A stretch of DNA of 45,718 nucleotides, taken from NCBI GenBank assembly GCA_021373175.1, contig JAJFTE010000134.1, positions 1 through 45,718 of the forward strand, in the 5' to 3' direction. Below are positions 1,499-44,943 of the stretch, piece after piece. Made by a program: the position numbers and the translations under genes. How positions within the stretch are numbered: the stretch's first letter is position 1; every line of letters starts with the position of its first letter. The stretch is from Actinomycetes bacterium (GTDB taxonomy: Bacteria > Actinomycetota > Coriobacteriia > Anaerosomatales > Anaerosomataceae). The notes under the pieces were generated by a model. That model did no database searches and was not told the DNA's origin. It saw nothing but the letters and a program-made list of their open reading frames with translations.

Positions 1499-2455
1499 CT
1501 AGCTGTACTGCCCGGACACGTTGTTGACACCGGGCACCCGTGAGATCGGTGGTAGACCGCCGATGCCGCCGTGCGGACGTCTGTGATTGTGATTGAACAC
1601 CCAGCCAGGGAGCGCCGCCAGGCGCTCCCTGTTGCTCTGGTAGGGCTTCCGGTATGCCCAGCCGTTGAGCATCAGCCTGATGAAGCGTTCGGCCTTGCCG
1701 TTGGTCTGAGGCCGGTAGGGCCGCGTGTGCGACCGCGTGACGCCGTGCTCCTCGAGCACGGCTCGCTGGGCGTGGGAGGAGTACGACATCGCGTTGTCGG
1801 TGAGCAACCGCCTGACCGTGATGCCGTGACCGGCGTAGTAGTCGATCGCCCGGGCGGTGAATCCAGCGACGGTGTCGGCACGCTCATCTGCGTGGACCTC
1901 GACATAGGCCAGACGTGAGTGATCGTCGACGGCGACATGGATGAAGTCGAACCCGCCACCCACATTGCGCTTCTTCTCCGCCCGGCCTCCGAACCGCCAG
2001 CCACCACCCTCGCCGAGACGTCCGAGCTTCTTGACGTCGATGTGGAGCACGTCGCCGGGCGCGGCGTGCTCGTAGCGCAGAGCCGGCGCCTTGGGCACAC
2101 GGTCAAGGTCACGAAGCCGGCTTTGGCCGTTTCTGGCCAGCACCCCGTAGATCGTGGACGGGGCGAGACCCGTGTGCCACGAGATCGTCAGTGGCCCCTC
2201 ACCGATCCTGCGGCGGCGCCAGATGCGCCGGAGATCTCTCGCTGATACGCGCTCACGGATGTGTGCAGGCCTGCTCGGGCGGTCGCGCAGACCCTGATCA
2301 CCGTCAGCCGTGTAGCGGCCGATCCACTTGTAGGCGGTCTGCCTTGAGACGCCCGCGGCCTGAGCCGCAGCGGTCACCGTCCAGCCCAGCTGGATCACGC
2401 GAGTGACGAGCAGTCGCCGTCCTGCAACGGTGAGAAGCGCGTTAGGATGTGACAC
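1499..2455 (-). CDS. IS481-family transposase (DDE)
   Basis: A 318-residue transposase with an N-terminal helix-turn-helix (residues about 20-60, AAGVSRQTAYKWIGRY) and an rve-type integrase core. The catalytic triad is visible as HIDVKKLG, LLTDNAMSY and NGKAERF, followed by a conserved HRRPHGGIGGLPP tail. The GTG start at 2455 is preceded by AAGGAGGACCCCC. The stop codon TAG is formed by the target-site CTAG at 1499-1502, outside the inverted repeat. No frameshift is seen, so it may be active. Confidence 0.95.
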   Translation of the reverse strand: MSHPNALLTVAGRRLLVTRVIQLGWTVTAAAQAAGVSRQTAYKWIGRYTADGDQGLRDRPSRPAHIRERVSARDLRRIWRRRRIGEGPLTISWHTGLAPSTIYGVLARNGQSRLRDLDRVPKAPALRYEHAAPGDVLHIDVKKLGRLGEGGGWRFGGRAEKKRNVGGGFDFIHVAVDDHSRLAYVEVHADERADTVAGFTARAIDYYAGHGITVRRLLTDNAMSYSSHAQRAVLEEHGVTRSHTRPYRPQTNGKAERFIRLMLNGWAYRKPYQSNRERLAALPGWVFNHNHRRPHGGIGGLPPISRVPGVNNVSGQYS

Positions 2456-3643: not shown

Positions 3644-4609
3644 ACATCTGTCGACATCGGACCGCACTACCTGGGCGTGATGCTCGGTCTAGCGATTGGG
3701 GATGCGCTTGGCGCGCCCGTGGAGTTCGAGTCGCTCTCGGAAATCCTCGCGCATCGAGGAGACCCGGGCGTGGCCGACTTCGAACCGCACAGAGGCCTCC
3801 CGCCGGGTTCCTACACCGATGACACCCAGATGTCCATCGCGACAGCACGCGGGACGCTCGACGCCCATGTGGCGGGCGCGTTCGGGTCCACCGCCGAGGC
3901 TGCGCCGAGGGTGTGGGCTGCGTATCAGGACTGGCGAGAGACCCAGGATGATCCTCACCAGCGACGTGCACCTGGCAGCACGTGCCTATCAGCCCTGCGC
4001 AGCGGCGTGATGGGCACGCCAGACATCCCGCTCAACAACGGCAAGGGCTGCGGCACGATCATGCGCATCGCGCCATGCGCGCTCCTCTACCCGGACGATC
4101 CGTTCGATTGGGCGCTCGCCTGTGGCGCCATGACTCATAGCCATCCGACGGGCTACTTCTCGGGCGCGGCGTTCGCACTCATTCTGCACGAGGTGCTCAA
4201 CGGCAAGAGCCTGGAGAGCGCCATCGAGGGCGCGCGTGACCGGCTTCAGGCCCAGGGTTTCGAAGCCGACGAAACGCGCGCAGTTTTGGAGACCGTGCTC
4301 GATCAGCACCGCCAGGACATGCCGCTCCACGAGCGCATCATCAACACCGGCGCGAAGGGCGAGGGCTGGGTTGCCGAGGAAACACTTGGAATAGCGCTCT
4401 CCTGCGCGCTCGTCCACCCGACCGACTTCTCAGCGGCCGTGCTGGCTGCCGTGAACATCACGGGTGATTCGGACTCGACAGGTTCAGTCACCGGCGCGCT
4501 CATGGGTGCGCTGCTCGGCGTCGACGCGATTCCGCGCGAATGGCGTGAGCAGGTCGAGAATGCGGCTCTCCTCACCCAGCTCGCGAACGACCTGTATCGC
4601 GCTAACTGA
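3641..4609 (+). CDS. ADP-ribosylglycohydrolase family protein
   Basis: 322 residues of the DraG/ARH fold, which removes ADP-ribose from proteins or nucleic acids using two Mg ions. Seen: GLAIGDALGAPVEF near the N-terminus, the metal-binding SYTDDTQMS, KGCGTIMRIAP and the C-terminal GDSDSTGSVTGALMG. The start at 3641 is the second of two starts created by a 36-bp repeat; 3605 is possible. The stop TGA (4607-4609) consists of the first three bases of the downstream IS element, so the natural C-terminus was altered by insertion. Without the IS the frame would run about 48 codons further. The gene lies between two IS481-family elements beside a broken restriction locus, so a defence or toxin-antidote role is possible but unproven. 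Confidence 0.92.
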   Translation: MTSVDIGPHYLGVMLGLAIGDALGAPVEFESLSEILAHRGDPGVADFEPHRGLPPGSYTDDTQMSIATARGTLDAHVAGAFGSTAEAAPRVWAAYQDWRETQDDPHQRRAPGSTCLSALRSGVMGTPDIPLNNGKGCGTIMRIAPCALLYPDDPFDWALACGAMTHSHPTGYFSGAAFALILHEVLNGKSLESAIEGARDRLQAQGFEADETRAVLETVLDQHRQDMPLHERIINTGAKGEGWVAEETLGIALSCALVHPTDFSAAVLAAVNITGDSDSTGSVTGALMGALLGVDAIPREWREQVENAALLTQLANDLYRAN

Positions 4610-5631
4610 ACGGTCCATAGAGGTTGTTGACAGAAAGGGACCCCTTCCTGTCGGTTGTTGGTTGTCGAAGCCACAGCCGAGGAGAGGGGTCCCCATGCAA
4701 CATCCTAACGCCCGCCGGTCCGTCTATCAGCGCCGATCGATCGTCGATAGGGTCGCGAACGGCTGGAGCGTCACCCGCGCGGCGTGCGCCGCCGGTGTCT
4801 CGCGTCAGACCGCGAGCAAATGGGTCGACCGGTTCCGCCGCAGCGGCCCTGTCGCTCTCCGGGATGCGAGTTCGCGTCCGTTGCGCACGGCTCCACGCGT
4901 GGGCCGTCATGTGGTGAGGCGCGTAGTGAAAGCGCGTCTGCACTTCCGCCGCGGACCGCACTTCTTAGGCTGGCAGCTCGGTCTGCCCGGCTCTACCGTG
5001 CACGTGGTCTTGCGGCGGCTGGGTCTGAATCGGCTGCAACGTCCGGAGCGCGAGAAGACGGTGCGCTACGAGTGGCTGGAACCAGGGGATCTGGTCCACC
5101 TCGACATCAAGCGGCTGGGCAGGATCGGTGAAGGAGGCGGGCACCTTGTGCGCGGATGGGCCGCTAAACACCGGCACGCGGGCATCGGTTGGGACTTCGT
5201 GCATATCGCGATCGACGACCACTCCCGGCTCGCTTACGCGGAGGTCTGCCCGGACGAGAAGGCCGACACCACGGTCGCCTTCACGGCCCGTGCACTGGAT
5301 TCCTTCGAAGGCGCCGGCATCCAGGTTCGCCGCATCCTCATCGACAACGGCCTACTGTCCCTTCACCTTCTGCGATCTGCTGGCCGAACGCGGCATATCG
5401 ATGCGCAAGACCCGCCCGTACCGTCCTCAGACCAACGGCGAGGCGGAGGCGTTCGTCAAGATCGTGAGCAACGAGCGGGCGTACGGGAGGGCGTATCACA
5501 ACACACAGGAACGAACCGATCGACTCGGTCCGTTCCTGAGGTACTACGATCTCTATCGACCGCACGGTGGCATCGGCGGTCAGCAGCCGATCTCGCGGGT
5601 CCGCGCGTAAACAACGTCCGTGGACCGTTCA
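4607..5631 (+). mobile_element. IS481-family insertion sequence, degenerate
   Basis: Imperfect inverted repeats of about 25 bp sit at 4607-4631 and 5607-5631 (both begin TGAACGGTCCA). The flanking CTAAC at 4602-4606 and 5633-5637 is the likely target duplication. The element differs in sequence from the one at 1504-2545 but has the same organisation, including the inner GTTGTTGAC/GTTGTTTAC motif. Its transposase carries two frameshifts, so it is probably immobile unless helped in trans. Confidence 0.87.
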
Positions 5632-5636
5632 CCTAA
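4695..5636 (+). pseudogene. IS481-family transposase with two compensating frameshifts
   Basis: It starts at ATG 4695 (GGAGAGGGG upstream) with an HTH (AAGVSRQTASKWVDRF) and the first catalytic segment HLDIKRLGRIGEGGG. Near 5345, right after LIDNG, the frame must shift to continue as FCDLLAERGISMRKTRPYR and NGEAEAF (the catalytic Glu). Near 5602 it must shift back to reach GVNN-like VNNVRGPFT and the stop TAA (5634-5636), which is formed by the target duplication. Both shifts are deduced by comparison with the intact transposase at 1499-2455. As read, the protein would be cut through the catalytic domain. Confidence 0.85.
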
Positions 5637-17720: not shown

Positions 17721-19145
17721 TTGACCAACTCTGATGCTCCCACGCGTCTGCCTGTGACGGCCGCGGTTCTCGCGGGCGGCCGATCGATGCGCATGGGTGT
17801 CGACAAGACGATGCTGCCGGTGGACGGCGAGCCGCTTGTGGCGCGCGTTGCCGAGACGGTGGCGGGGCTGTGCGAGCATGTCGTTATCGTCACGAACCGC
17901 CCCGAGGCGCTCGACCCGGCTTCGCTGCCTGCACACGTTCGGATCTTGCAGGACGAGGTTGCGTATCAAGGACCGCTTGGCGGGTTGGTGACGGCGCTTG
18001 GGGCTGCCGAGGATGACTGGGTGCTTGCTGTCGCGGCCGATATGCCGTGGCTGCGGCCGGAAGTCGTGCGACTTTTGTGGGACTCCCGTAACGGCGCGCA
18101 GGTGGTCATCCCACTCACGGAGAAGGGGTCTGAGCCGTTGCTCGCCCTGTACCATCGCGATTGCCTTCCCGCGGCCCGCACCGTGCTGGAGTCGGGCAGG
18201 CGGCGAGTGGTGGCGATTCTCCCATCCCTCAAGGTCGTGGAAGTCCCGGTCACGGCGATCCGAGACGTCGACCCTGGTCTCACCAGCTTCGTGAACGTGA
18301 ACACGCCCGAGGACCTGTCCGAAGTGCACCATGGCGCCGCTCCGGTTCCGTTGCCCGACGAGGGCCATGAGGTGCGCGTCTCGGTCATCGAGGTCGGGAC
18401 GCGGCGTCCGCGCCCCATGCCGAGCGAACGGGCCGTCACGATCGACATGAACGGCACCGAGATCGCGACCGTGCAGGCCACGCCGCACGATCTCGATGAG
18501 ATGGCGGTCGGGTTCCTTGTCGCCGAGGGGCTGCTCACCGATCGCGACGCGTTTCTGGGCGCGGATGTCGACGCGAAGCGTGGGCTCGTGTACGTGCGCA
18601 GCGAGGAGCCGGTGCCCGACGACCTCGTCTACCGCCGCCGGTACATCACCGCAGGTTGCGGCAAGGGCGTGACGTTCGCGTCGCTCGGCCACACCCTCGG
18701 GCTCGACGCCGTGACATCGACCGCGGTCGTCGATTCCCGCGAGCTCTATGACATGATGGGTCAGATGTTTCGACAGTCGCTTGCATACCGTGACCGTGGC
18801 GGCATGCATTCATGCGCGCTTGGCCGGGATGGTCGCGTGCTCTTGGTCCGTGAGGACGTCGGCCGTCACAATGCGGTCGACAAGGTGCTGGGCCGCGCAT
18901 GGATCGACCGGGTACCAGTGGAAGGGGCCGTTTTGCTCACCACGGGCCGCATCAGCTACGAGATGGCGGTGAAGGCCGCGAAGGCCCGCGTCCCGATCGT
19001 CGTATCGCGCACAGCGGTCACCGATCTTGCCGCCGAGGTGGCCGCCACCGTTGGCGTCACACTCGTCGGCTACGCGCGTGGTGGCAAGATCGTCGTCTAC
19101 ACACGACCCGAAAGAGTGTCGGTTCCCGAGGAGGACAACCTGTGA
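17721..19145 (+). CDS. MobA-FdhD fusion: Mo-cofactor guanylyltransferase plus formate dehydrogenase sulfurtransferase
   Basis: 474 residues with two enzymes in one chain. Residues 1 to about 205 are MobA, which attaches GMP to molybdopterin: AAVLAGGRSMRMGVDK is the nucleotide-binding signature and VAADMPWLRPE holds the metal-binding Asp. Residues about 215-474 are FdhD, which passes sulfur from a desulfurase to the cofactor of formate dehydrogenase: DEMAVGFLVAEGLL, ITAGCGKGV, GGMHSCALG and VREDVGRHNAVDKVLG. The FdhD motif is CGKG, with one Cys where E. coli has two, a variant also known in clostridial-type FdhD. The start is TTG 17721 with AGGAGG upstream. There is no internal stop or start at the junction, so the fusion looks real. 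It overlaps moeA by four bases. Confidence 0.93.
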   Translation: MTNSDAPTRLPVTAAVLAGGRSMRMGVDKTMLPVDGEPLVARVAETVAGLCEHVVIVTNRPEALDPASLPAHVRILQDEVAYQGPLGGLVTALGAAEDDWVLAVAADMPWLRPEVVRLLWDSRNGAQVVIPLTEKGSEPLLALYHRDCLPAARTVLESGRRRVVAILPSLKVVEVPVTAIRDVDPGLTSFVNVNTPEDLSEVHHGAAPVPLPDEGHEVRVSVIEVGTRRPRPMPSERAVTIDMNGTEIATVQATPHDLDEMAVGFLVAEGLLTDRDAFLGADVDAKRGLVYVRSEEPVPDDLVYRRRYITAGCGKGVTFASLGHTLGLDAVTSTAVVDSRELYDMMGQMFRQSLAYRDRGGMHSCALGRDGRVLLVREDVGRHNAVDKVLGRAWIDRVPVEGAVLLTTGRISYEMAVKAAKARVPIVVSRTAVTDLAAEVAATVGVTLVGYARGGKIVVYTRPERVSVPEEDNL

Positions 19146-23129: not shown

Positions 23130-23611
23130 GCGAGCTTCGCATCGGCGTGCTGACCTGTTCGGACTCGCGCTCGGCGGGCGGTGCCGAGGACACGTCCGGC
23201 CGTGCGCTTGTGGAGCTCGCACAGGCGCGAGGCTGGTTGCTTGCGGCGTATCACGTCGTTCCCGACGACCGGGAGACCATCGCGAACACCATCGTCGAGA
23301 TGGCGGACATCGATGAGGTCGATATCCTGCTCACCACCGGCGGCACCGGTCTCGGTCCGCGCGATGTCTGCCCCGAGGCCACGCTCTCGCGCGCCGATCG
23401 TGAGGTGCCTGGCATCGCCGAGGCGCTGCGTGCCGAGAGCATGCGCATCACGAAGCGCGCGATGCTCTCGCGCGGTGTGGCCGCCATGCGCGGGCGCACG
23501 CTGATCATCAACTTTCCCGGCAGCGAGAAGGCCGCCCGGGAATCGTTCGAGATCGTCGCCGACCAACTGGAGCACGCCGTCTTGATGATCGCAGGCGGCG
23601 GCCATGCGTGA
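23126..23611 (+). CDS. moaB: MoaB/Mog family molybdopterin adenylyltransferase
   Basis: 161 residues. Seen: IGVLTCSDSRSAGGAEDTSG at the N-terminus, LLTTGGTGLGPRDVCPEAT (the MPT-binding TGGTG motif) and INFPGSEKAARESFEIV. It activates molybdopterin with AMP for MoeA. The start ATG overlaps the MOSC stop (ATGA). Whether it is the MogA-type enzyme or the MoaB variant used with tungsten cannot be told by eye. Confidence 0.94.
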   Translation: MSELRIGVLTCSDSRSAGGAEDTSGRALVELAQARGWLLAAYHVVPDDRETIANTIVEMADIDEVDILLTTGGTGLGPRDVCPEATLSRADREVPGIAEALRAESMRITKRAMLSRGVAAMRGRTLIINFPGSEKAARESFEIVADQLEHAVLMIAGGGHA

Positions 23612-24767
23612 GCTGCGCACCGGGCGGCGCATCACGTATCTCGATCATGCCGCCACCTCATGGCCCAAGCCAGAGCCGGTGATCGAGGCCGTCGTGCACG
23701 CCATGACAGACGCGGGCGGCAACCCCGGGCGCTCGGCGCACGTGCTCGCGCTCGCGGCATCGCGGCTCATCCTGGAGGCGCGCACCGACGTTGCGGCGTT
23801 GCTCGGCGTGCCAGACGCCCGGGATGTCGCGTTCATGCCCGGTTGCACCGCCGGCCTGAATCTTGCGCTCAAGGGGCTGTTACGTCCCGGCGACCGTGTC
23901 GTCGTGGGATCCACCGAGCACAACGCCGTCTCGCGTCCGTTGCATGCGCTCGCGCAAGCGGGAGTCCGCGTCGACGTCGTACAGACAGACAGCGCAGGGC
24001 GCATCGATCCCGACGCTGTCGAGCGCAGCGTGGCCGAGGCACTCACCACAGCGGTCGTCTGCCAGCACGCGTCGAACGTGCTTGGCACGATCCAGCCGGT
24101 GGGAGACCTCGCCGACATCGCGCATGCGGCTGGCGCGTACCTGGTGGTCGATGGCGCACAGGGTGCGGGCCACCTCAAGGTCAATCTCGCCACGCTCGGT
24201 GCGGACGCGTACGTGGCGTCGGGGCACAAGGGGCTGCTCGGCCCACAGGGCGTCGGCGTGCTGTACCTGGCGCCCGGCGTGGACGCGGTCGAACTCACGC
24301 AGGGCGGCGGCGGCTCAAACTCCGAGGATCCCGTGCAGCCCACCGCGCGACCCGACCGCTACGAGGCGGGCACGCCCAACACGCCCGGTATAGCAGGGCT
24401 GGCAGCCGCCGTACGGCTGCTCATGGCCGAGGGCGACGCGATCCGTGCCGAGGAACAGCGTCTCGTCCGCATGCTGCACGAGCAGCTTCTCGAGATTCCA
24501 GGGCTGCGCGTCCTCGGTCCGCCACCTGGAGAGGAGCGGGTGCCTGTTCTGAGCGTCGTGCATGCGCGGGTTGCCGCCGATCGCATCGCGTTCGAGCTTG
24601 ATGCGAAATACGGCATCGCCGTGCGAGCGGGTCTTCACTGCGCGCCGTGGGCTCACGAGACCGCCGGCACCGCCGGGTGCGGCGCGGTGCGATTCGGCGT
24701 CGGTTACGGCGTGACCCAGGGCGACATCGAACTCGCCGTTCAGGCGATGCGCGAGGTGTGTGCATGA
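23604..24767 (+). CDS. Class V aminotransferase, cysteine desulfurase family
   Basis: 387 residues. PLP enzyme of the SufS/CsdA type: YLDHAATSWPKPEPV at the N-terminus, VDGAQGAGH, Schiff-base Lys in ASGHKGLLGPQG, and the catalytic Cys in RAGLHCAPWAHE. It overlaps the moaB end by eight bases and sits between Mo-cofactor genes and DUF3343, so it probably supplies sulfur (or mobilises selenium) for the cofactor or for FdhD rather than for Fe-S assembly. That role is inference. Confidence 0.93.
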   Translation: MRELRTGRRITYLDHAATSWPKPEPVIEAVVHAMTDAGGNPGRSAHVLALAASRLILEARTDVAALLGVPDARDVAFMPGCTAGLNLALKGLLRPGDRVVVGSTEHNAVSRPLHALAQAGVRVDVVQTDSAGRIDPDAVERSVAEALTTAVVCQHASNVLGTIQPVGDLADIAHAAGAYLVVDGAQGAGHLKVNLATLGADAYVASGHKGLLGPQGVGVLYLAPGVDAVELTQGGGGSNSEDPVQPTARPDRYEAGTPNTPGIAGLAAAVRLLMAEGDAIRAEEQRLVRMLHEQLLEIPGLRVLGPPPGEERVPVLSVVHARVAADRIAFELDAKYGIAVRAGLHCAPWAHETAGTAGCGAVRFGVGYGVTQGDIELAVQAMREVCA

Positions 24768-25009
24768 GCCAGTTGGCGCCGTTCGTCGTCTACGCGTTTG
24801 CCACCACCCACGACGCGCTTGGGGCAGAGCGTGCGCTGATCGCCGCGGGCGTGTCGCACACGACGATACCCACGCCGGCCAGCATCGGCGTGCTCTGTGG
24901 CATCGCGTTACGCGTGCCCGAGCTCTCGGTGGCCGATGCCGAGGCGGCGCTCAAGAGCGCCGGGTCCGTCTGGACCGCGCGTCTGGAGATGTCTGACCGG
25001 ACAGGCTAG
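24764..25009 (+). CDS. DUF3343 protein, putative sulfur/selenium carrier
   Basis: 81 residues with the DUF3343 pattern: FATTHDALGAERALIAAGV, TIPTPASIGVLCGIALRV and a terminal alpha/beta segment. The single Cys in LCGIAL would be the carrier residue. The family was linked to selenium utilisation by comparative genomics (recalled). Its start overlaps the desulfurase stop (ATGA) and its own stop overlaps the convergent L,D-transpeptidase stop within CTAG (25006-25009). Confidence 0.88.
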   Translation: MSQLAPFVVYAFATTHDALGAERALIAAGVSHTTIPTPASIGVLCGIALRVPELSVADAEAALKSAGSVWTARLEMSDRTG

Positions 25010-41953: not shown

Positions 41954-42690
41954 GTGGATTCGCCACGTCTTGTCCGGATACTGAGAATAGCGGCGGGCAC
42001 ACTCGCATGCTGCTGCCTGTTGTTCCTCGTTCTGGGCGGGTCTCTCTATTACCGGTCAACGACGCTTCCCGATATCCGCGTCGATCAGCCGGCGTTCCGA
42101 CCTGCACAGACATCGGTCGTGTACGCGGCCGACAGGAGCGTGCTCGCCACATGGCATGCCGAGCAGGATCGCACCGTGGTCGCGTTCGACAAGATGCTCC
42201 CAGCATGAAGAACGGCATCGTTGCGGGTGAGATCGTTTACGAGCCAGATCGTGCCGGGAACCGCGCGCTCGACGGGGCAGTGGTCAAGACCGCTGGATCG
42301 ATGTTGCACGATGTGGTCGAGAACCGTACGACGCAAGCGTACCGGGCCGCATGGTTCGTCGGTTACAGCGGCGACCCCTGTACTGCCGTGTGGGTCGGGC
42401 GCCCCGATGGTCAGGTATCGATGACTGACGTGCACGGCATCAGGGTGACTGGCGGGAGCTTCCCCGCGAAGATCTGGCAGCGCTTCATGCGCGTGGCAGT
42501 GTCCGCCCATGATGGGGCCGCGACCGCGATCCCATCGGCATCGGCCGACGGTGACCCTCAGAGCGGTGCGCAGGTGAAGGTCACGATCTGCATCGACACG
42601 CTCTTGCCAGCTAATCCTCGCTGCCCGAACACCGTCGAGATCTATCTCGATGACGCGCTCGCGCAGCGCTCAATATGTAAGGAGCACTAG
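41954..42690 (+). pseudogene. Class A penicillin-binding protein with large internal deletion
   Basis: GTG 41954 (GGGAGGCTGC upstream) opens a frame with a membrane anchor (ILRIAAGTLACCCLLFLVLG) and TSVVYAADRSVLATWHAEQD and RTVVAFDK, the usual lead-in to the glycosyltransferase domain, but it stops at 42208. In the next frame, from ATG 42205, comes the end of a transpeptidase domain: YRAAWFVGYSGDPCTAVWVG, then VHGIRVTGGSFPAKIWQRFM, and a Cys-containing tail to 42690. The glycosyltransferase domain and the Ser, SxN and KTG motifs are absent. Roughly 500 codons appear deleted at about 42200. Either a true deletion or an assembly collapse explains this. Confidence 0.75.
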
Positions 42691-42983
42691 TGCGATATCC
42701 CGACCACTACGGTGAGCTGCAAGTCTCGCACGATGCCGAACCGGAAGTGATCGAGAAGGCGTTTCGGGCGCTTGCACTCAAGTACCATCCCGATAGCGGC
42801 GCATTGGGAGATGCGCGAAGGATGCAGCGAATCAACTCGGCGTATGCGGTACTTCGCGACCCGGCTGCTCGTGCGGCGTACGATGACTCGTTGCCAGCCA
42901 TGCACCTCTCGGGCTGGGAGATCTTCTGGGATTCTGGTCTGGTCGGTCTATACCGCGAGCGCCGGCGATCCGTCCGGATGTGA
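42690..42983 (+). CDS. J-domain (DnaJ-like) protein
   Basis: 97 residues. Residues 4-65 are a J domain: DHYGELQVSHDAEPEVIEKA, the HPD motif in LKYHPDSG, and RMQRINSAYAVLRDPAARAAYD. A 30-residue tail follows. GTG 42690 shares a base with the upstream stop and has AAGGAG before it. It would stimulate an Hsp70; no glycine/phenylalanine or zinc region is present. Confidence 0.9.
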   Translation: MRYPDHYGELQVSHDAEPEVIEKAFRALALKYHPDSGALGDARRMQRINSAYAVLRDPAARAAYDDSLPAMHLSGWEIFWDSGLVGLYRERRRSVRM

Positions 42984-43036: not shown

Positions 43037-43369
43037 TCAGGAGACGGCATTCAGCTTCGTTTGCACAGCCCGAAGGATGGCAGGGTAGGAGACCGCACCT
43101 TCGTACAGAGGCTCGCCGTCGATGACAGTGACAGGGTAGACGAGCCCCTGTTGGCGGATCTGCTCTATGACTTGGTCGCGACCGACGATGGTCTCAGGTC
43201 TGCTCGTGTCGTAGTACGTGATGGATGCCGCCTCGCCGAACCGGTTCTCCATCTCGGAGCGGATGATCTCGGTGATCTCCTCCGGAGACCAAGAGGGACC
43301 TCAACCACCGCTATAGCAGTCGGTCTCGGCCGGATGGTCATACACTTCCACAGAAACGGTCTTTTCCAC
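43037..43369 (-). CDS. saoT: Thioredoxin-like selenoprotein candidate (SaoT-like), UGA read as selenocysteine
   Basis: 110 residues if the TGA at 43301-43303 is decoded as Sec (residue 23). The N-terminal part VEKTVSVEVYDHPAETDCYSGG runs into the TGA and the same frame continues GPSWSPEEITEIIRSEMENRF, then YYDTSRPE, VYPVTVIDGEPLYEGAVSYP. Without readthrough each half is meaningless, while together they form a thioredoxin-like fold with C18-x4-U23 as redox pair. A stem suited to a bacterial SECIS follows the TGA. GTG 43369 has GGGAG upstream, ten bases after the ferredoxin stop. The ETxCYSGG(U/C)GPSW pattern recalls the family named SaoT, (seleno)protein, from memory. Alternative: a nonsense mutation. 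Confidence 0.7.
43274..43290 (-). promoter_or_regulatory. Candidate SECIS stem-loop after the in-frame UGA
   Basis: On the minus strand GGTCTCC pairs with GGAGATC (seven pairs, one G-U) around GGA, starting ten bases after the TGA. Size and distance fit bacterial selenocysteine insertion elements, whose apical part lies just 3' of UGA. Confidence 0.5.
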
Positions 43370-43379
43370 AACGTCTCCC

Positions 43380-43583
43380 TTATCCCAGATTGACTGCGCC
43401 GCCGGGGCAAACCCGGGCACAGATTCCACATCCCACGCAGAGGTCCTCTCGGACGGTATAGCCATTGGCACCAGGGTACACCCCTCCCGGAACCGGTACG
43501 ATTGCGTTTTGCGGACACACACGCCTTGCCGGGCACGCCGGTGACCGGTCGCAGGTGGCGGAATCGATGCTCACGGCAAGCAT
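43380..43583 (-). CDS. Small 4Fe-4S ferredoxin-type protein
   Basis: 67 residues. The C-terminal cluster motif CVGCGICARVCPGG is canonical. The first Cys group is unusual: CDRSPACPARRVCPQNAI has spacing CX5CX5CP instead of CX2CX2CX3CP. ATG 43583 follows GAGGAGACATC. It is the first gene of a two-gene operon with the selenoprotein candidate and probably delivers electrons to it or to a shared partner; that is inference. Confidence 0.85.
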   Translation of the reverse strand: MLAVSIDSATCDRSPACPARRVCPQNAIVPVPGGVYPGANGYTVREDLCVGCGICARVCPGGAVNLG

Positions 43584-43782: not shown

Positions 43783-44943
43783 GTGAACGAGGAATCTAGG
43801 CCCGGGGATGCCGGTCGTTCGATGCTTCGGGTCATGCTCGGAGCTGGCGTCGCAATCGGGGTGGCTTTCTCGTTCATGGCTCGGCTGTTCGTGGAACCCA
43901 AGAGCACACTGTCCTGGTGGCTGTTCTTCGCCGCCTGCGTTACGGCGGGTGTGGTTCTCGGCGTGCTGTGCCACTACGCATCCCTGCGGATGGCCGAGGG
44001 CGTCCTCGCCCAGGTGCTCAGCGTCGCCGGACGGTCGCTCGGTATCGCCGTTCACGAGAGCCGGGGGCTTGAGACGCTCACCGGCGAACTCGAACGTGTT
44101 CTGTCGAATGCGTCGAACCTGCTCGACCAGATACGCGCGGCGAATACGAATATCCGCGCGCTCACCGCCGAAGTGCTTGCCGCCACGGAACAACAGGCAT
44201 CAGGAGCGTCCGAACAGGCGGCGGCGGTCACTCAGACCTCTGCGACTGTTGAGGAGCTCGCACAGACGTCGAGCCAGATCGCCGACAACTCGGAATCCGT
44301 GGTGCGCGTGGCTGAGCGGACCCTGGCCAGCGCCGAGGAGGGGATGCATGCGGTACACGAGACCAGTGCGGGCATCGAAGATATCCGGGTGAGCACGCAG
44401 CAATCGTCGGACCGGATCCTTGCTCTCGGCGAACGCAGCCAGGAGATCGGCCGGGTGCTCACGATCATAGATGAGATCGCCGAGCAGACGAAGATCTTGG
44501 CGCTTAACGCCGCCATCGAGGCTGCGCGTGCGGGGGACGCCGGCAAGGGATTCTCGGTGGTTGCCGAGGAGATCCGGAAGCTCGCCGAGTCGGTCACGGA
44601 ATCCACTCAGGAGATCGGTCGGGTCGTGCGAGAGATCCAGGCGTCCACGGCGTCGCTTGTGATGCAGACCGAAAAGGCGGCCAAGAAGGTCCAGGAGGGC
44701 CTTCAACTCGCCTCGCACACCCAAGACGCGCTTGAGCGCATCGTCTCCCAAGTCGAGGAGACCACCGATGCCGCAAAGCAGATCTCGGTCGCGACGCAGC
44801 AGCAGCGCACCGCATCGGACCAGGTCGTGGTATCGATGAGGGAGGTCGCGATGGTATCGCAGCAGGCCGCGCAGGCTTCCCGGCAGATCTCGGCAGCGAT
44901 CGTGGAACTCAACTCGCTTGCCGACAGCATGGTGGTGCGCTGA
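43783..44943 (+). CDS. Methyl-accepting chemotaxis protein, membrane-anchored without sensor domain
   Basis: 386 residues. Two N-terminal membrane segments ([19 protein letters not shown] and [18 protein letters not shown]) are separated by about ten residues. No HAMP domain is obvious. The signalling domain has the tip [20 protein letters not shown] and [14 protein letters not shown] 43783 with AGGAG upstream is the start. It lies outside the che cluster and divergently from the selenoprotein operon (about 200 bases). The signal sensed is unknown. Confidence 0.92.

Follow-up and report, generated by a model that had tools for sequence, protein, structure and literature searches.

A predicted selenocysteine protein of the DUF1462/ArsD type, with its UGA codon and SECIS-like hairpin conserved across an order of Actinomycetota

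The insertion of selenocysteine (Sec) at UGA is in itself a standard recoding mechanism. Among described proteins, the two families closest to the one presented here are DUF1462 (PF07315; YuzD-type, S. aureus SA0789/SA0798, PDB 1xg8), whose structure is a thioredoxin fold (PMC3091736), and ArsD (PF06953, NF033727), in which Cys12, Cys13, and Cys18 form the As(III) site, Cys13 and Cys18 being essential in the E. coli R773 chaperone (PMC4562236). The 2026 catalogue of prokaryotic selenoproteins comprises 119 families and subfamilies (PMC13188914). SaoT (NF040730) is likewise a small thioredoxin-like selenoprotein, with a UxxC motif (PMC13188914), and Trx (UxxC), Grx (UxxC), Sec.1 (CxU), Sec.2 (UxC), and UXX-star share a thioredoxin-type fold in which Sec lies close to the first helix.

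The window, which is the whole stretch of 45,718 nucleotides analysed here, contains on its minus strand two half-frames that share one reading frame and are split by the TGA at 43301-43303 alone. The original prediction had joined them through this codon into a 110-residue protein with DCYSGG-U-GPSW, and direct translation gave precisely this product, with the motif C18-Y-S-G-G-U23-G-P-S-W and no Cys after Sec, which is followed by G-P-S. As had also been foreseen, standard ORF calling returned the 71-residue C-terminal piece, together with a spurious N-terminal ORF. The elements of the gene are as follows.

43037..43369 (-): predicted selenoprotein gene, thioredoxin-fold; 110 codons, GTG start at 43369, TGA stop at 43037-43039
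43301..43303 (-): in-frame UGA, predicted Sec, residue 23; TGA at this codon in 63/63 class homologues
43316..43318 (-): Cys18, partner residue, five before Sec; conserved in 63/63 in the class
43375..43380 (-): AGGGAG, Shine-Dalgarno-like, 5 nt before the GTG start, as read off the sequence
43273..43291 (-): putative SECIS hairpin; 8-bp stem UGGUCUCC/GGAGAUCA, GGA loop, 17 nt from UGA to loop

The in-frame stop codon is almost certainly read as selenocysteine, and sequence comparison leads us to regard the gene at 43369-43037 (-) as a selenoprotein gene with very high confidence. In the proposed mechanism, SelB carrying Sec-tRNA(UCA) would bind the hairpin at 43273-43291 and Sec would be inserted at UGA 43301-43303, translation otherwise ending after 22 residues. 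The product would be a 110-residue cytosolic thioredoxin-fold protein of the DUF1462/ArsD type, with Cys18 and Sec23 in the loop following the first strand as a selenol/thiol pair. As a whole (Sec protein, SelB/hairpin recoding, DUF1462/ArsD-type fold, and the presumed function of the pair), this explanation is the best available and very probably correct; gene, recoding signal, machinery, and fold are established by comparison, and the function is deduced from homology and gene order.

The AlphaFold model (mean pLDDT 88.8, 66-70 round the active loop) has a thioredoxin fold, and a single confidently predicted domain covers both halves. Both Foldseek and VIA-align placed 1xg8 of DUF1462 on top (Z 9.2 over 101 residues, 21% identity), with ArsD close behind (Z 8.7) and many thioredoxins just below, the Z-scores exceeding those of other thioredoxins only slightly. 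The Pfam model of DUF1462 was passed with 32.0 bits (gathering cut-off, 25), and the homologues at loci L083 and L052 scored 32.5 and 28.1, more distant UGA homologues falling below the cut-off. In the position of Sec23, 1xg8 has a Cys, adding to the likeness with DUF1462 in Pfam score and fold; in contrast to that family, the window protein has Sec, a partner Cys five residues before it, and a strictly conserved GP-x-W after it. With ArsD, it has in common the thioredoxin fold and the Cys-x4-Cys/Sec-Gly spacing, Cys18/Sec23 falling on Cys13/Cys18-Gly of ArsD in a mixed alignment with ArsD sequences from the fetched loci. However, it does not pass either ArsD model, scoring 21 bits with Pfam (cut-off, 27) and 16.9 with NCBIfam (cut-off, 90), has no equivalent of Cys12, does not adjoin arsA, and bears Sec.

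The assignment to SaoT that accompanied the original prediction had to be abandoned: an NCBIfam scan at E<=0.1 gave no SaoT match and listed ArsD alone (E 0.007), the motif is CxxxxU, whereas SaoT has UxxC (PMC13188914), and no Sao genes were found beside the gene, the best matches of its neighbours being ferredoxin, DnaJ, and MCP models. The other thioredoxin-like selenoproteins differ from the window protein in the spacing of the motif, and their NCBIfam models were not matched. Three genes surround the candidate selenoprotein gene.

43380..43583 (-): 67-residue two-cluster 4Fe-4S ferredoxin-like gene (Pfam Fer4_7, 2e-8), 10-nt gap upstream of the GTG
43783..44943 (+): methyl-accepting chemotaxis protein (MCP), divergent, separate transcript (PF00015, 3e-40); position conserved
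42690..42983 (+): small DnaJ-domain protein, convergent (PF00226, 4e-17); position conserved

Conserved neighbours were scored by directed tblastn across 63 homologous loci of the class. The ferredoxin was found at the same upstream place in 52 of them, the divergent MCP in most, and the convergent DnaJ-domain gene in many, and in part of the order a DUF362 gene with Fe-S domains follows the candidate selenoprotein gene. In the window, no ars genes were detected close to this gene, and its conserved neighbours across the order included none. Beyond the divergent MCP, multihaem cytochrome c genes (Cytochrome_C7, PF14522; e.g., L052:2-1387(-)) lie upstream in much of the order, with relatives in many loci found by tblastn.

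A wider search, with a profile built from 56 sequences, extended the UGA homologues beyond the class to 20 more genomes of the phylum, and overall the same UGA and hairpin are kept in more than 80 related genomes, a family whose outer limits are soft because its weakest members are linked by the profile alone. All the distant relatives read carry UGA, and representatives scanned against NCBIfam matched no model. The motifs at the Sec site are DSCSGGUGPSWS in family f44, SCGFGUGSYG in f42, ACRGGGUAPP in f50, and GGUGPVCEPADCG in f84; in f42 and f44, Cys stands four residues before Sec, compared with five in the class, and the partner Cys is absent from the f50 protein at locus L117. The gene settings vary too: the f44 genes come after ThiI/MnmA-like and 2-thiouracil desulfurase (DUF523) genes, the f50 gene after a thioredoxin, and the f84 gene in an ars operon. 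In the last case, found in another family of the phylum, the UGA gene (L119:3931-4287(+)) directly follows two arsA genes in an operon of the type arsD-arsR-arsA-arsA-...-acr3; it is ArsD/DUF1462-like and encodes an extra Cys (VCEPADCG) after Sec. Such varied neighbours suggest a general thiol/selenol or soft-ion function and not one pathway.

The f42 genomes also contain second small UGA proteins (L114:4076-4417(-), L115:4068-4406(-), and L118:757-1095(+)) with the motif [VL]PSGU[SR]S and a similar C-terminal half, of which the L114 one had no NCBIfam match. They possibly represent another selenoprotein family.

The Cys18/Sec23 pair would be either a selenenylsulfide redox couple or a soft-metal(loid) site like Cys13/Cys18 of ArsD. 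From the sequence comparisons, we are evenly divided over a redox role, in which the ferredoxin encoded just upstream perhaps supplies electrons, a guess drawn from gene order; a metal(loid) role is possible, if rather unlikely. One form of the latter is a Sec-dependent ArsD-like metallochaperone, in which Cys18/Sec23 would bind As(III), Sb(III), Hg(II), or similar ions and hand them to a partner, with no redox catalysis. Such a chaperone would suit the column-for-column match with two residues essential in ArsD of R773 (PMC4562236), the presence of ArsD among the best structural matches, and the UGA homologue inside an ars operon, but it has against it the missed ArsD cut-offs, the absence of the first ArsD cysteine, and conserved neighbours in the order (ferredoxin, MCP, DnaJ, DUF362) that include no ars genes, as is also the case in the window. 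For the protein described here we hold it doubtful. A broader proposal, that an ArsD/DUF1462-like superfamily in several lineages of one phylum is Sec-obligate and lacks Cys orthologues, with one ancestral SECIS hairpin preserved through compensatory changes and a Cys/Sec pair binding and delivering metalloids or other soft ions, and thus constitutes a selenium-based metallochaperone class, is speculative and unlikely in our judgement.

The hairpin had been described from the sequence as GGTCTCC and GGAGATC round a GGA loop, beginning ten bases past the UGA; it was recovered as such, and the flanking T and A extend it to an 8-bp stem. The whole element, UGGUCUCC-GGA-GGAGAUCA, is built from codons +5 to +9 after the UGA, together with the preceding Trp codon and one base, the first, from the codon that follows. 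At codons +1 to +3 and from +10 onward, third positions vary freely, and at codons +5 to +9 the synonymous entropy is near 0, with a frozen choice of Ser TCT (59/59), Pro CCG (60/61), Glu GAG (57/57 and 63/63), and Ile ATC (61/62). Within the family, no synonymous change was found over the hairpin codons, with a pS of ~0.6 in the flanks on both sides.

The stem cells are paired in 99.2% of cases among 62 distinct sequences of the class and in 96% across the phylum, where the distant hairpins were aligned visually to the register of the known one, a procedure slightly biased towards pairing. Over 22 distinct hairpins, double-sided changes amounted to 22 cells, against 7.2 in shuffles and 0-3 when the partner was slid by 1-3 columns. 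For example, the closing pair, C-G in the order, is A-U in both members of the other family of the class, U-A in f44 and f50, and mostly A-U in f42, where G-C and G-U also occur once each. Since the residues encoded at the altered positions differ as well, the maintenance of the stem is not merely codon conservation. The bacterial SECIS model asks for a spacing of 16-37 nt and a G within the first two loop positions (PMC13188914); the spacing from UGA to loop is 17 nt here and 20 nt in f42, and the loop is mostly GGA or GGC, with one sequence having UGA and another GUC. By these comparisons, the hairpin fits the published model, and compensatory changes preserve its stem elsewhere in the phylum. 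Folded in isolation, the 20-mer reaches -9.5 kcal/mol (z -3.4), but alternatives rival it once longer single sequences are folded, and there it is not the sole optimum. For long stretches, single-fold free energies were uninformative or adverse and were set aside, and the comparative evidence carries the SECIS claim because the thermodynamic evidence alone is weak.

The machinery for Sec insertion was searched for in the source genome, as the original prediction had proposed, and all four genes were found: selA (585.7 bits), selB (377.9 bits; cut-off, 242), the tRNA-Sec gene selC with anticodon TCA, and selD (370.5 bits), which itself has one in-frame TGA. The presence of the gene goes with that of selB both in a sample of the phylum (22/24 versus 146/372, Fisher p 3e-7) and in the class (50/63 versus 90/235, p 4e-9), figures not corrected for kinship. 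In addition, selB was found in 20 of 21 genomes tested, comprising 19 of the 20 genomes with UGA homologues outside the class plus G027 and G037. With all candidates scored, selB stays below the cut-off in 13 of the 63 class genomes that carry the gene; many of these genomes are fragmented or incomplete, but at least one of them, G025, has a completeness of 98% in about 10 contigs and gives partial selB matches only, some of which fall at the ends of contigs.

The formate dehydrogenase alpha subunit was rejected as a companion selenoprotein, as TIGR01591 finds none in the source genome. The DUF3343 and desulfurase genes that had been linked to selenium/sulfur handling are both present in the window, on the plus strand, but they lie 18 kb away from the gene.

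23604-24767 (+): cysteine-desulfurase-like class-V aminotransferase, directly before the next gene
24767-25009 (+): DUF3343 protein (PF11823 Se_S_carrier; Pfam E 4e-12)

This pair (23604-25009) is consistent with selenium or sulfur delivery. By eye, a 474-residue ORF at 17721-19145(+), within a molybdenum/tungsten cofactor and transport cluster, seems to be a fusion of MobA-like and FdhD-like domains.

Hairpin and machinery both bear on whether a near-cognate tRNA (Trp) could read the UGA, giving leaky or regulated readthrough without selenium. Some readthrough is needed whichever residue goes in, but a frozen, compensating hairpin that matches the SECIS model, the co-occurrence of the genes with selB, and a residue whose counterpart in 1xg8 and ArsD is Cys and not Trp make this reading very improbable.

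Of the 27 family genomes searched with the readthrough protein, 25 have the gene, in every case with a single in-frame TGA. Across the order 61 genomes carry it, as do two from another family of the class. The homologue set thus comprised 63 genomes (the source genome, 60 others of the order, and the two of the other family). Reading of each locus revealed TGA at the identical codon in 63/63, five after the invariant Cys, in the context C-x4-U-G-P-[STA]-W; one homologue, in G102, has a second in-frame TGA close to its C-terminal end. Cys was found at the Sec site in none of the 63, nor did any Cys orthologue appear in the class, and it is in the distant relatives 1xg8 and ArsD that Cys occupies the aligned position. 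Two more weak matches in the class, in G195 and G207, were without the stop, and the one that was read, L086, is ArsD-like (CCPTGICG). A scan of genome contigs yielded five close relatives, and the named near relatives appear in public records under Coriobacteriia or Actinobacteria.

A TGA at one shared codon in all 63 class homologues excludes chance, and it led us to reject sequencing error. A changed genetic code was rejected too: TGA is the true terminal stop in 33 of the 63 genes, hence UGA is not a general sense codon. Within the genus, pN/pS is 0.22 upstream of the UGA and 0.17 downstream of the hairpin, and within the family the values are 0.29 and 0.35, respectively; such low values on each side indicate that both halves are translated and constrained. 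The original reading of the UGA as Sec in a thioredoxin-like protein stands on the points where it might have failed, as selB and selC are in the genome, homologues keep the UGA and distant relatives carry Cys there, and the 63 genomes with TGA rule out a read error. That the UGA is a true stop, within a decayed pseudogene or between two short genes, as the separate pieces from standard ORF calling would have it, is a negligible possibility: 63 genomes share the UGA, purifying selection acts on each side of it, homologues carrying it occur in 20 more genomes, and one confidently predicted domain extends across both halves.

The 2026 catalogue (PMC13188914) has no family named DUF1462 or ArsD-like and none with a C-x4-U motif, and a literature search, which covered open-access papers and left subscription ones outside its scope, found no prior report of a DUF1462 or ArsD selenoprotein. 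These two absences argue for a new selenoprotein family, conserved and order-wide, which ORF calling trims to its C-terminal 71 residues. It would bring selenocysteine into the ArsD/DUF1462 branch of thioredoxin folds and give largely uncultured actinobacteria a selenoprotein, even though no formate dehydrogenase alpha subunit was found in the source genome. It also supplies naturally occurring compensatory variants of a SECIS hairpin, useful for testing, and a handle on DUF1462, whose structure was solved long ago and which has no known function.

Elsewhere in the window, two integrase-type transposase genes of similar kind were noticed by eye at 1499-2455(-) and 4464-5636(+), the second of which looks frameshifted (ORFs 4464-5636 and 5128-5610).
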